A stretch of DNA of 23,892 nt, from positions 1 through 23,892 of the IMG/VR virus record IMGVR_UViG_3300032313_000105; one strand, written 5' to 3'. Both the position numbers and the translations under genes were made by a program. Positions within the stretch are counted from its first letter, which is position 1; each line of letters begins with the position of its first letter. Shown here in pieces: positions 15,338 through 22,814 of this stretch. The stretch is from a virus. The notes under the pieces were generated by a model. The model had not been told where the DNA came from, made no database searches, and worked only from the letters and a program-made list of their open reading frames with translations.

Positions 15338-15547
15338 TCATTTTCCTCTAGAAATATTCGGTCTAGAATTTGGTTTAGAAGAAGACTTTGATCCTTTTTC
15401 CATAGCTTCTTTTTCTTTTTCTTTTGTTTCTATTAGTTTCTTTAAATAGAAAATCCTCAAGAACACAGGTAATTTATATGCAATATCCTGTGTAAATGCA
15501 CCTTGAGAATGATATGCCAAACTAAATATCTGTTCGTGAATCAACAA
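15338..15547 (-). CDS. Short +1-frame ORF, candidate frameshift extension of the gp26-like protein
   Basis: The ORF has no ATG before the coding body. The only starts are two TTG codons (15547, 15544) one base past the gp26-like stop, giving 69 residues. The same frame stays open upstream through GLTPEDK to a stop at 15584-15586, spanning the U7 run. The protein reads LLIHEQIFSLAYHSQGAFT, then YKLPVFLRIFYLKKLIETKEKEKEAMEKG, and ends in a Ser/Lys/Pro/Asn tail. GLTPEDKLLIHEQ looks like a coherent helix start that a TTG-initiated product would lose. A +1 (or -2) shift at the U7 run would fuse it to residues 1-272 of the gp26-like protein, about 348 residues in all. The alternatives are separate TTG initiation by coupling, or a homopolymer sequencing error. 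Confidence 0.6.
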   Translation of the reverse strand: MLIHEQIFSLAYHSQGAFTQDIAYKLPVFLRIFYLKKLIETKEKEKEAMEKGSKSSSKPNSRPNISRGK

Positions 15548-15548
15548 C

Positions 15549-15594
15549 TTATCTTCCGGAGTCAGGCCAAAAAAACTGTACCGTTAGCGGTACA
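15549..15594 (-). promoter_or_regulatory. candidate programmed frameshift site with upstream hairpin
   Basis: On the minus strand a perfect 7-bp hairpin TGTACCG/CGGTACA with a CTAA loop (15577-15594) is followed by one G and seven T residues (15569-15575). The gp26-like frame reads CAG TTT TTT TGG and stops 18 bases past that TGG. Slipping forward one base on the T-run keeps Phe tRNA pairing and enters GGC CTG ACT CCG of the 69-aa frame. The two frames overlap only from 15549 to 15583, a narrow window typical of recoding sites. Hairpin plus U-run also fits an intrinsic terminator. Confidence 0.55.
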
Positions 15595-16385
15595 CCTATC
15601 CTTTCGTCGTGATTACATTGTTCACATTTGAAATCAAAATTTAAATCAATATCAGGAGTTCTTTCTTTAATCAACTTTCTTAATTCAAAACTGTCTTTTG
15701 AAGTAAGTTCATTTTCAACAAATTTTTTGACTTCTGTTTTATCAGAATTTCCATTTACAGCTACAATTGTGTATCTTAATCTAGTAGTTACATCTGAAGT
15801 ACTACCAGTTTTAATCTTTTGCAACATCTTGGTTTCATTGTCAATCTGTTTTTCATCTCCTGAAGTTAATAATTTACAAGTTACGGTCTTTTTACAATAT
15901 GGCAGTTCAACATCAAATTGATTTGATCCTTGTGGATACTTTGATACATCCACATCTTTATATTTCAAATCGCTTAAATTGAATGTACATTCATTATTTT
16001 CTCTACATGACGGACATTTAATTTGAAGCGGACCATAACTATCACCATAAGCAAATCTTCGGATTGCAACAAATACTGCATTTTTATCACCCAATAACAA
16101 ATCGTCTAGTTTTATATCTTTATCCACTATAAGTGATTCAATCAACTTATCCAACACAATACCTTTTTTGATATAATTTTGATTGGTAAGAATATCTTCT
16201 TCTTTTGCAGTCATTATCTTTAAGTTAATAGTACCATTGCTCAATGGACTAGAAGAAGGATAAAAATGTCCCTGACTTGGCAAATCAACTATTTCAGATG
16301 GATAAGTTGTTTCTTGTTTTGGTTGAGAACTATTTCCAGCAAATTGACTAGCTGGTTTTGTAATAGGAATTGTATAGTCGTCCAT
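15549..16385 (-). CDS. 26: gp26-like zinc-ribbon tail/baseplate assembly protein (278 aa), likely tail assembly chaperone
   Basis: The protein opens with a Ser/Gln-rich arm, then YPSEIVDLPSQGHFYPSSSPLSNG. MTAKEEDILTNQNYIKKG (58-75) and LDDLLLGDKNAVFVAIRRFAYG (92-113) follow. This pattern matches the T4 gp26-type baseplate or hub assembly proteins of myoviruses. Two CxxC pairs (C124/C127 in CPSC and C254/C257 in CEQC) could form one zinc ribbon. The C-terminus is LTVQFFWPDSGR, with the shift site at Phe271-Phe272. It precedes the tape measure gene, where tail chaperones are encoded. A 13-bp inverted repeat abuts its ATG (16386-16432). The family assignment is from memory of the motif set, and the chaperone role is inferred. 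Confidence 0.75.
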   Translation of the reverse strand: MDDYTIPITKPASQFAGNSSQPKQETTYPSEIVDLPSQGHFYPSSSPLSNGTINLKIMTAKEEDILTNQNYIKKGIVLDKLIESLIVDKDIKLDDLLLGDKNAVFVAIRRFAYGDSYGPLQIKCPSCRENNECTFNLSDLKYKDVDVSKYPQGSNQFDVELPYCKKTVTCKLLTSGDEKQIDNETKMLQKIKTGSTSDVTTRLRYTIVAVNGNSDKTEVKKFVENELTSKDSFELRKLIKERTPDIDLNFDFKCEQCNHDERIGVPLTVQFFWPDSGR

Positions 16386-16446: not shown

Positions 16447-17292
16447 TTAAGACGATTGAGATTGTTGTTGTGCTGCTTTTAATAAATCTGTTTTTGACTT
16501 TACAGTTTCTTTTGCGGTTTTCAATTCGTCATCCACTTTCTTTTTTTCTTCAGGTGAAGATGCCATTCTTTGTCTTGCACTTACTTCTTTTTCTTTATCT
16601 TTTGCAGATGATAATTCTATTTGTCTTTGTGCGAGTAAAGCATCATTAGTTTTTTTAACTGCTTGTTTTACATCAGACTCGTCTTCATTCAATATTTCAT
16701 TGATAAGTTGTATAATACATTCCTTTATCTTTTTTTTAGATGTTGCCATACCCTGTTTAACCGCATCAAATAATTCTTTTGCTAATTGTGGATTATTTGG
16801 AACAGTACCCTTAAATGATTCAAAATCGTTATTCTTTACAAATTCTCTTGCCATACTAGCACTAACTCCTCCCACTCCTTCCATACCATCTTCTCTTTCA
16901 CCACTACTAATGATATTTAAAACACCAAATCTAGGTGTTTTATCCATACCATTCCATGTGTTCAATAGTTTAGTAAATTCTGGAACTCTATCACTACCAC
17001 ACACAAATGTTGCATCAGTATAACCATTTGCCTTTAATTTATCTGCGGCTTGTAAAACATTTTTAATTGATACATCATATACAATTTTATCTTGTATATC
17101 AGGAAATAGTTTCTTTAAAAAATTGACCTTGGTTTGATAATCCAATGGATTTTTATCAGGATCCTGCGATTGACTTGTAAAAATATAAAAATCACCACCA
17201 TCTGCTGCGTCAACTACAGTATCAATTAACTTTTTATGTCCTACCGTAGGAGGATTGAATCTACCAAATGCAAATGCTACATGTTTCTTCAT
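16447..17292 (-). CDS. Cytidylyltransferase-fold nucleotidyltransferase (NMN adenylyltransferase-like)
   Basis: From the ATG at 17292 the product has 281 residues. A TTG at 17298 would add two residues but overlaps the ATATTTAT element, so ATG is preferred. Residues 5-19 read VAFAFGRFNPPTVGH, the nucleotide-binding loop with the T/HxGH motif of this superfamily. FVCGSDRVPEF is the second conserved strand and loop, and GVSASMAREFV is the ISxTxxR-like motif. Together these cover a complete catalytic domain (about 1-185). The last 90 residues are a Lys/Glu/Ala/Gln-rich coiled coil, an extension beyond the usual enzyme. Many T4-like phages carry such genes, thought to act in NAD or nucleotide metabolism. 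Its position inside the tail module, right after the tail-tube terminator, is unusual. Confidence 0.82.
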   Translation of the reverse strand: MKKHVAFAFGRFNPPTVGHKKLIDTVVDAADGGDFYIFTSQSQDPDKNPLDYQTKVNFLKKLFPDIQDKIVYDVSIKNVLQAADKLKANGYTDATFVCGSDRVPEFTKLLNTWNGMDKTPRFGVLNIISSGEREDGMEGVGGVSASMAREFVKNNDFESFKGTVPNNPQLAKELFDAVKQGMATSKKKIKECIIQLINEILNEDESDVKQAVKKTNDALLAQRQIELSSAKDKEKEVSARQRMASSPEEKKKVDDELKTAKETVKSKTDLLKAAQQQSQSS

Positions 17293-17297
17293 ATACA

Positions 17298-17305
17298 ATA
17301 AATAT
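17298..17305 (-). promoter_or_regulatory. ATATTTAT element between the tail-tube terminator and the nucleotidyltransferase
   Basis: Minus-strand ATATTTAT at -13 to -6 from the ATG. It lies in the 31 bases between the terminator stem and the start codon. If the terminator is efficient, any promoter for this gene must lie in this stretch, and this element is the only candidate seen. An AAGGA sequence sits just upstream, 12 bases from the ATG. Confidence 0.5.
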
Positions 17306-17971: not shown

Positions 17972-19477
17972 ATGTCCAGATCTAAAAATTTAAAAAATTG
18001 GTTGACTATACATTGCAAATTTTGTAATAATGTGTTTGAATGTAGGGTAAGTAAACCCAAAGTGTTTTGTAGTAAGAAGTGTAGCAATAGTGATGGTTCT
18101 ACAAAACAAAAGATAATTGACGGTCAAAAAAAGACATTTGACGAAAAATATGGTGGACATCCAATGACTACGGATGTGGTAAAATCCAACTTTAAATCTG
18201 CAATTCTTGAAAAATATGGAGTGGATAGTTACAGTAAACTTCCAGAATATAGAAATAAAGTTAAAAAAACAATGTTAGAAAAGTATGGGGATGAGAATTA
18301 TTCTAATGTAGAACAAACTAAATCTACTATGATGGATAGATATGGTGTAGATAATGCGGCTAAAATCAAATCTGTTCTTGATAAACGATCACATACTAAG
18401 AAAGTAAACCACTATGAGTTCCTAATAAATTACTGTAATAGTAACAAGTTGCAATTCCTATGCAGTGAAGAGGAATACAAAGGTTATCACTTTAGTAATC
18501 TTTATAAATTTAAATGTGATGTGTGCAGTAAAACACTAGAAAGTACGGTTTATAATTTAAATAATTTATTCTGTGATTATTGTCATCCAGAGAAAATTAC
18601 TACTGTTGAAAATCAATTTTATAATTTTCTAATAGAAATTTTACCAAAAGATACTATAATTAAAAGAAATGACAGAAGTATACTTAACGGTAAAGAACTG
18701 GATTTTTATATTCCCAGTTTAAAACTTGCGTTTGAAATCAATGGATTGTATTGGCACAGTGAAAATAGTGGTGGTATCAATAAAAACTATCATTTGAATA
18801 AAACAAAGTCTTGTAGTTTTTATGGCATTTCATTGATTCATATATTTGAAAATGAATGGATACATAAAATGGAAATTGTTAAATCAATTATTAAAGTCTT
18901 GACAAGAACAAATACACTTGTTAAAATTAACGCAAGAGATTGCAAAATCAAAGAAGTAAATGAATCGGATAAAAATAAGTTTTTAAATAACAATCATTTA
19001 CAAGGAGAAGATAAATCTACAATCAAATTGGGAATGTATCTTAAAGATGAATTGGTTAGTATTATGACATTTAGAAAATCATCACGGTTTGATAAAACAA
19101 GTGATTGGGAATTGGTAAGATTTTGTAACAGTATTAATACTATAGTTAATGGCGGTGCAAGTAAATTGTTAAAATATTTTGTAAATCACTACAAACCAAA
19201 GAATATTGTTAGTTATAGTGATAGAAGATATTTTACAGGTAAAATATATGAAACTTTAGGATTTAAATTCGTTAGTCATACACCGCCTAATTATCATTAT
19301 CTAATAAATAATTATAAAGATATTAGACACCGCATGAGTTTCCAAAAACATAAATTAGAAAAATTATTAAAAATATATAACCATTCGTTAAGCGAATGGG
19401 AAAATATGAAAAATAATGGTTATGATAGAATTTGGGATTGTGGACATGGTAAATATTTTTTAACCACATCATTATAA
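17972..19477 (+). CDS. Free-standing homing endonuclease with Vsr-like PD-(D/E)XK domain
   Basis: The only plus-strand gene (501 aa). A Cys cluster (C15/C18 and C33/C37) suggests a zinc finger. It is followed by repeats containing EKYGVDSYSK, EKYGDENYSN and DRYGVDNAAK (about 57-131), a pattern common in DNA-binding arms of phage homing endonucleases. A second zinc-ribbon pattern is C182/C185 and C201/C204. The nuclease core is KELDFYIPSLKLAFEINGLYWHSE (D244, E255, H262), then YHLNKTK and SLIHIFENEW, as in very-short-patch-repair-like homing enzymes. The C-terminal part (from about 315) has NNNHLQGEDK, VRFCNSINTIVNGGASKLL and YSDRRYF, resembling an acyltransferase-like fold often fused to these nucleases. 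It sits beside the tail tube gene and interrupts no visible ORF, so it is an intergenic selfish gene. A 7-bp inverted repeat (19381-19399) lies in its 3' end. Confidence 0.85.
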   Translation: MSRSKNLKNWLTIHCKFCNNVFECRVSKPKVFCSKKCSNSDGSTKQKIIDGQKKTFDEKYGGHPMTTDVVKSNFKSAILEKYGVDSYSKLPEYRNKVKKTMLEKYGDENYSNVEQTKSTMMDRYGVDNAAKIKSVLDKRSHTKKVNHYEFLINYCNSNKLQFLCSEEEYKGYHFSNLYKFKCDVCSKTLESTVYNLNNLFCDYCHPEKITTVENQFYNFLIEILPKDTIIKRNDRSILNGKELDFYIPSLKLAFEINGLYWHSENSGGINKNYHLNKTKSCSFYGISLIHIFENEWIHKMEIVKSIIKVLTRTNTLVKINARDCKIKEVNESDKNKFLNNNHLQGEDKSTIKLGMYLKDELVSIMTFRKSSRFDKTSDWELVRFCNSINTIVNGGASKLLKYFVNHYKPKNIVSYSDRRYFTGKIYETLGFKFVSHTPPNYHYLINNYKDIRHRMSFQKHKLEKLLKIYNHSLSEWENMKNNGYDRIWDCGHGKYFLTTSL

Positions 19478-21878: not shown

Positions 21879-22814
21879 TTATGTCGTCGAATAACCTGCA
21901 GCTGCTATATTTCTTCTAGCAGTACCAACACCTGTTACATCAATTGCAACTATGCCTGTATTACTTACTAAATTTGTCATAGATAGATTATTACTACTAT
22001 CAAAACCATAACCAAATATAGCTTTATCACTACCATATCCCGCAGCAGCTAGCCCATGTCTAGCAGTACCTACGCCTGTTGTGTCTGTAGCAACTACACC
22101 TGTGTTACTTACTAAATTTGTCATAGACACATTTACACCTGTATAACCATATCCAAATATAGCTTTATCATTTCCATATCCAGTCGCTGCGGTAAAATAT
22201 CTAGCAGTACCAACACCCGTTGTATCAATTGCAACTATGCCTGTATTACTTACTAAATTTGTCATAGATAGATACGCACCTGTATAACCATAACCAAATA
22301 TAGCTTTATCACCACCATATACTGCTGCTGCTGGACCCTGTCTAGCAGTGCCAACACCAGTTGTATCTGTTGAAACAGTACCTGTGTTACTAACCAGATT
22401 TGTCATAGATACATTAGCACTGCCATTATAACCATATCCAAATATAGCTTTATCACTTCCATATCCCGCTGCTGCTAGATACACTCTAGCAGTACCAACA
22501 CCTGTTACATCATTCGCAACCACACCCGTGTTACTTACCAAATTAGTCGTAGATACATAATTGCCACTAGCGTTACCATAACCAAATATAACTTTATCAC
22601 TTCCATATCCCGCTGCAGCTAAAGAATTTCTTGCAGTGCCAACACCTGTTACATCATTCGTAACCACCCCCGTATTGCTTACTAAATTTGTCACAGATAC
22701 CCATGCTCCACTATAACCATACCCAAAAATAGCTTTTTGAGTACCGCTTATTACGACACTAGCACTAACATTAGTACTGTTGTATCTGGATGTGCTTAAT
22801 GTTTTTACTTGCAT
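21879..22814 (-). CDS. Kelch-like repeat protein, probable beta-propeller receptor-binding or fibre protein (311 aa)
   Basis: Almost the whole protein is six copies of a 47-48 residue unit: GTAR...AAAGYGSDKAIFGYG...TNLVSNTG. FGYG and TNLVSNTG each occur six times. The N-terminus has a divergent half-unit (TSRYNS...GTQKAIFGYG) and the C-terminus ends with the other half (GTARRNIAAAGY), as in propellers closed by joining the first and last strands. The unit length fits one four-stranded Kelch-type blade, so a six-bladed propeller is likely. The loops between IFGYG and TNLV vary most (YSGAWVSV, NASGNYVS, YNGSANVS, YTGAYLS, YTGVNVS, FDSSNNLS). This is where binding specificity would be expected. 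It starts one base after the 109-residue gene's stop. A role in host binding is inferred from position and repeats. Confidence 0.7.
   Translation of the reverse strand: MQVKTLSTSRYNSTNVSASVVISGTQKAIFGYGYSGAWVSVTNLVSNTGVVTNDVTGVGTARNSLAAAGYGSDKVIFGYGNASGNYVSTTNLVSNTGVVANDVTGVGTARVYLAAAGYGSDKAIFGYGYNGSANVSMTNLVSNTGTVSTDTTGVGTARQGPAAAVYGGDKAIFGYGYTGAYLSMTNLVSNTGIVAIDTTGVGTARYFTAATGYGNDKAIFGYGYTGVNVSMTNLVSNTGVVATDTTGVGTARHGLAAAGYGSDKAIFGYGFDSSNNLSMTNLVSNTGIVAIDVTGVGTARRNIAAAGYSTT
21966..22700 (-). repeat. six tandem 141/144-base coding repeats
   Basis: The TNLVSNTG-coding word recurs with its AAATTT mark at about 21970, 22114, 22255, 22396, 22540 and 22684. The spacings are 144, 141, 141, 144 and 144 bases. 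Units differ by whole codons only, so copy-number change by recombination would stay in frame. Confidence 0.8.

Follow-up and report, generated by a model that had tools for sequence, protein, structure and literature searches.

A probable +1 programmed frameshift in a tail assembly chaperone gene of T4-like phages, preceded by a Shine-Dalgarno-like element and a hairpin

The sequence under study, hereafter the window, is a virus record of 23,892 bases. On its minus strand the genes of a tail module follow one another in the order tail tube protein (gp19-like; 17860–17369; PF06841, E 4.3e-07; phrog_4542, E 1.5e-29), cytidylyltransferase, a gp26-like gene (16385–15549), a short open reading frame (ORF) ending at 15338, and the tape measure protein (15302–12615; 895 aa; phrog_167 tail length tape measure, E 6.7e-10). 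The 278-aa gp26-like product belongs to the T4_baseplate family (PF12322, E 4.6e-15; 56.3 bits against a cut-off of 24.5) and also matches phrog_150, baseplate hub (E 1.1e-16). Pfam and PHROGs searches with the domain encoded by the short ORF (the C-domain) gave no convincing match, and scanning the window against Rfam and for tRNAs gave none. The cytidylyltransferase-like gene (phrog_3041, 4e-52) occupies 16447–17298, between the tube and gp26-like genes; in several named relatives the tube gene adjoins the chaperone gene. Elsewhere in the window, an ORF of 501 aa on the other strand within the tail module (17972–19477) has Cys pairs and a homing-endonuclease-like look, and a 311-aa protein (21879–22814) that adjoins likely structural genes is built from some seven repeats of the form GVGTARxxLAAAGYGSDKAIFGYG.

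The gp26-like gene crosses the sequence TTTTTTTGG and reaches its zero-frame stop six codons further on. Its 3′ end reads GUA CAG UUU UUU UGG CCU GAC UCC GGA AGA UAA, in which the seven U residues run from 15575 to 15569, starting eight sense codons ahead of the stop (15551–15549), and the candidate slip site UUU UUU UGG occupies 15567–15575. The +1 frame, closed upstream by a TAA at 15586–15584, stays open between 15583 and 15338, so that the overlap of the two frames starts just before the U run. Past the U run this frame reads GGC CUG ACU CCG GAA GAU; it contains no ATG, and its first start-like codon is a TTG at 15547, just past the UAA. A +1 shift at this site would join 270 residues of the gp26-like protein to 78 residues of the extension (TAC-C, GLTPEDKLLIHEQ..., 15338–15568), giving a product of 348 aa. 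A preliminary description of the locus had placed the gene, the U run and the +1 frame at these positions, by implication on the minus strand, and had recognized the small ORF without an ATG and forms of 278 and about 348 aa, all of which the sequence bears out. A short ORF with an overlapping out-of-frame extension directly upstream of the tape measure gene is the arrangement of the G/GT-type chaperones, and the sequence comparisons set out below make it very probable that the locus is a two-product tail assembly chaperone gene with a +1 programmed frameshift. In the public records that we looked at, the two ORFs stand separate, nameless or are absent.

Comparison of homologous loci, proposed in the preliminary description as a check on the U run and the frame offset, showed that the offset is kept and that the slip site varies within the pattern TTT/TTC-YTT-T. 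A scan with the window protein returned 38 loci, of which the 36 with sequence across the site, one of them at 34% identity, all have a U run followed by GG together with the frame offset. When the C-domain was scored by hidden Markov model, its frame was +1 in 118 of the 120 scorable loci among the matches listed for window-type queries, and in 79 of 79 scorable loci among the matches listed for a more distant profile. The profile search of relatives used the best 80 of at least about 600 stretches; the two IMG/VR sets overlap in part, and both consist of the best matches listed rather than random samples. Synonymous diversity drops from 0.30 to 0.03 across codons −8 to +4 around the site. 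Isolates and large uncultured phages carry the site with minor variation, among them Flavobacterium phage immuto (TTTCTTTGG), Microcystis phage Mel-JY01 (TTTTTTTGG) and Rhodothermus phage RM378 (TTTTTTTGG). The Bacillus, Listeria and Streptococcus phages SP-15, LIS04 and GXN1 have U-rich sites with the +1 offset, those of SP-15 and GXN1 fitting a UUU_C slip, as does the site of LR756508 (TTTCTATTC). By these comparisons the conservation of the +1 site is not due to chance. The large number of independent contigs, together with the isolates immuto, Mel-JY01, RM378 and SP-15, rules out sequencing or assembly error as the source of the offset. The two exceptions among the 120 loci, L103 and L043, have the C-domain in another frame. 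In the IMG/VR relative L103 (2760–2790), which lies inside the +1 clade, the C-domain is in the −1 frame and the site, TTC TTC TGG, is seemingly followed by an extra C, which points to a true reversal or else to a one-base error in the contig.

The sites were TTTTTTTGG (96), TTTTTTTAC (10), TTTCTTTGG (10), TTCTTTTGG (1), TTCTTTTAC (1) and TTTCTATTC (1) among the matches listed in the first set, and TTTTTTTGG (67), TTTTTTTAC (4), TTCTTTTGG (2), TTCCTTTGG (2), TTTCTTTGG (2) and TTCTTTTTT (1) among those listed in the second. They follow the pattern TTT/TTC-(T/C)TT-T(GG/AC), and nearly all are compatible with a P-site slip at YUU_U in which the tRNA moves from YUU to UUU. At the sequence level, the site and its variants thus have the YUU_U P site of the RF2 type. 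They do not form a canonical −1 signal (X_XXY_YYZ, a Shine-Dalgarno sequence at 9–14 nt and an extension in the −1 frame), the offset here being +1.

Just upstream of the slip site lie two elements that were absent from the preliminary description. A hairpin of 7 bp, UGUACCG-CUAA-CGGUACA (15577–15594), ends 1 nt short of the site, and a Shine-Dalgarno-like sequence, AAAGGAUAGG (15595–15604), stands directly 5′ of it. The window hairpin folds at −8.5 kcal/mol (z −4.1 relative to dinucleotide shuffles), and in the +1 class the hairpin ends 0–4 nt ahead of the slip site. We distinguished structure from coding by means of a null in which synonymous codons were re-drawn with pooled usage. Among 83 distinct +1 loci, 49% fold better than 95% of the re-draws in the 24 nt before the site, and mean Z is −1.49 at −24 to 0 and near 0 at more upstream positions of the gene. 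A significant hairpin is missing from roughly half of the distinct +1 loci and is therefore not needed everywhere. The hairpin was replicated in 58 new +1 loci (mean Z −1.51, s.e. 0.17), whereas the same test in 74 loci of the −1 class described below found none (mean Z 0.04, s.e. 0.09). Stem sequences differ widely (GUACCG, AUACCG, GAUCCC, CUACCC, ACGGU and others), and it is therefore the structure and not the sequence that is conserved. Pairing to the anti-Shine-Dalgarno sequence also beats the synonymous null, at −30 to −18 in the +1 class and at −18 to −6 in the −1 class (Z −1.24 in both). Synonymous selection acts on both the Shine-Dalgarno-like element and the hairpin in the +1 class.

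The spacing of the Shine-Dalgarno-like element differs between the classes. In the −1 class a GGAGG ends 11 nt from the site, and spacings of 9–14 nt are known for −1 frameshifting. In the +1 class the median distance between the end of the element and the P codon is 26 nt, which falls to 7 nt with the hairpin removed (4 nt in the near relatives of the window). The spacing given for +1 frameshifting is 3 nt (PMC5009743), and a hairpin adjoining the E site raises +1 and attenuates −1 shifting on 70S ribosomes (PMC6321510). A 3′ stimulator was not found in the window, where the sequence past the site folds less well than its shuffled versions; across the class a weaker fold signal lies at +13 to +37 (Z −1.2), in a stretch that is read in two frames and for which the null kept only one. 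By eye, a second stem of about 6 bp surrounds the zero-frame stop in L057, L061, L062, L105 and other loci (for example, GCGGGC...GCCCGC).

The same extension frame could be reached by a −2 ribosomal shift, as is reported for phage Mu (PMC5009743), with one extra residue and the junction VQFFFGLTPEDK (FFFG) in place of VQFFGLTPEDK (FFG) for +1. At TTT TTT T the two shifts allow equally perfect tRNA re-pairing, and the preliminary description had named both. The variants separate them: TTC TTT T, TTC CTT T and TTC TTT C keep the frame but cannot all re-pair at −2 as a Mu-type site would, because the tRNA would then be placed on UCU or UCC with a mid-codon mismatch, and +1, after which the variants pair well, is therefore favoured. 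An upstream hairpin adjoining the site also stimulates +1 shifting (PMC6321510). Thus, +1 is the best reading and −2 is unlikely. RNA polymerase slippage on the T7 run, producing mRNAs of altered length that are read straight through, is suggested by the presence of seven T residues in the window and most relatives, but we consider it highly improbable: the site is TTTCTTTGG in 10 of 119 cases and TTCCTTTGG or TTCTTTTGG in some others, and all of these keep the frame offset although their longest run is at most four. These variants without a long U run exclude slippage as the general cause, and the selection on the hairpin and Shine-Dalgarno-like element suits a ribosomal event.

Two further alternatives concern initiation rather than a change of frame at the U run. 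The downstream ORF could be a gene of its own, translated from the TTG or by ribosomes that re-initiate past the UAA, and the TTG at 15547 in the window is suitably placed for this. However, in 13 of 118 relatives the C-domain frame lacks ATG, GTG and TTG throughout its first 40 codons, and an ATG occurs within the first 15 codons in only 6 of 118, so that relatives do not generally have the ATG-started small gene that was anticipated as one objection to a frameshift. Moreover, the segment GL[TS]xE is conserved in the +1 frame upstream of any start, in line with the earlier suggestion that initiation at TTG would cut off a natural protein segment. We give a separate gene next to no chance. It is also very unlikely that the Shine-Dalgarno-like element and hairpin serve an internal start about four codons before the slip site, from which a separate C-domain would be made after the shift. 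Some relatives read GGAGGUGCCGAUG at that position, and an internal start, 26′, is annotated within gene 26 of T4, but a start-like codon is found there in only 27% of 143 distinct loci, the window has CTA, and a shift would still be required. Comparison of the loci establishes a conserved site, a +1 offset, a C-domain without its own start, and selection on the 5′ hairpin and Shine-Dalgarno-like element. The conserved site, offset and C-domain support the original proposal of a programmed +1 shift that would yield a short and a long tail chaperone ahead of the tape measure gene.

A PF12322 search of T4-like reference phages found two members in T4 (gp26 and gp51) and one each in P-SSM2, S-PM2, HTVC008M, phiM12 and KVP40. 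The single-member phages have the extension in the −1 frame, as do 80 of 80 IMG/VR relatives of the cyanophage type among the matches listed, all at U_UUU_UUC. The C-domain profiles of the +1 and −1 classes match each other with 93% probability (E 3e-7; score 38.3, against a maximum of 18.5 for 60 shuffled profiles), and the −1 profile matches the C-terminal end of gp51 (84%, E 7e-6); the direct match of the +1 C-domain to the gp51 end is weak (0.3%). Through these links the long form of the window would therefore be the equivalent of TAC-NC, with T4 splitting the pair into two genes. In a tree of 53 N-parts, which has several long branches and an unsure deep order, −1 and +1 fall largely by clade with few direction changes (5 for all three states). 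The jumbo-phage PF12322 genes of XacN1 (L125), RAS14 (L128) and LR756511 (L043) lie on the +1 side of the tree with an apparent −1 site of the U_UUU_UUA or U_UUU_UUC type, which suggests that the direction of the shift changed repeatedly. A profile search with XacN1/RAS14 found no relatives.

Vladimirov, Gautam and Davidson (2022, Virology 566:9, doi 10.1016/j.virol.2021.11.003) reportedly identified the chaperones of T4-like phages; the abstract is said to describe frameshifting as conserved in several T4-like groups, and the study may already list a +1 group. In passages citing the 2022 study, other papers refer to T4-like phages in which a short gene and a fused, longer one stand in place of a frameshift (PMC10885494) and to poly-T −1 signals in T4-like TAC genes (PMC12846349). 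A 2016 review lists lambda-type G/GT frameshifting, the −2 shift of Mu and a likely +1 shift in HSTV-2, with T4 as the exception (PMC5009743). The preliminary description did not mention that frameshifting of T4-like chaperones had been described before, apparently as a −1 shift.

Among the closest known systems is the TAC-N/TAC-NC gene of the P-SSM2, S-PM2 and KVP40 type, an orthologous PF12322 gene with the same Phe-Phe and a homologous C-domain. It shifts −1 at U_UUU_UUC with a Shine-Dalgarno-like element 11 nt upstream and no hairpin, whereas the window would shift +1 at YUU_U behind both elements. T4 gp26 and gp51 are both PF12322 proteins and correspond to the short and long forms, but are encoded by two separate genes without a frameshift. 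Lambda G/GT likewise produces a short and a long chaperone by low-level frameshifting just before the tape measure gene (PMC5009743), although by a −1 shift and in a different protein family. The bacterial RF2 gene (prfB) shares the +1 slip at a YUU_U P site and a 5′ Shine-Dalgarno stimulator, and some relatives of the window read CUU_UGG C. RF2 has a stop codon in the A site, whereas the window class has a sense codon (UGG or UAC) and a Shine-Dalgarno-like element about 26 nt away linearly, with the hairpin between. The tail chaperone shift of the haloarchaeal myovirus HSTV-2 is very likely +1 (PMC5009743), but this virus is archaeal and unrelated, and the review does not mention a Shine-Dalgarno and hairpin cassette for it (PMC5009743). 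The layout of a Shine-Dalgarno-like element plus a hairpin was not found in the literature searched. Frameshifted tail chaperones are thus an already known class, and the new part is apparently this cassette.

From these comparisons we infer that the shift occurs and is +1, that the hairpin acts on it and that the products are chaperones. Most ribosomes would end at the UAA at 15549 and make the 278-aa TAC-N. Some would slip by +1 with the P-site Phe tRNA on the second UUU of UUU UUU UGG, re-pair on UUU and read GGC, making a TAC-NC of about 348 aa. By analogy with lambda gpG and gpGT, the short and long forms would load the tape measure protein and recruit the tube protein. The hairpin may refold at the exit side of the ribosome and drive the slip, either alone or by drawing the Shine-Dalgarno duplex close, perhaps to an RF2-like distance. 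We put at about even the chance that Shine-Dalgarno, hairpin and YUU_U constitute an undescribed +1 cassette, in which the hairpin fills the spacer and a duplex beside the E site pushes the ribosome forward.

If this is correct, an upstream hairpin would be in widespread natural use for +1 shifting, and the direction of the shift would have changed during evolution along with the stimulator layout, the cyanophage orthologue being −1, with no hairpin and its Shine-Dalgarno sequence elsewhere. The comparisons suggest that annotations of these phages should join the two ORFs. The tail-chaperone frameshift would be extended in the +1 direction to a large, mostly uncultured T4-like clade. The two classes share a gene and a site but differ in the direction of the shift and in how the stimulators are laid out, which would make them a natural matched pair for testing what determines the direction of the slip.
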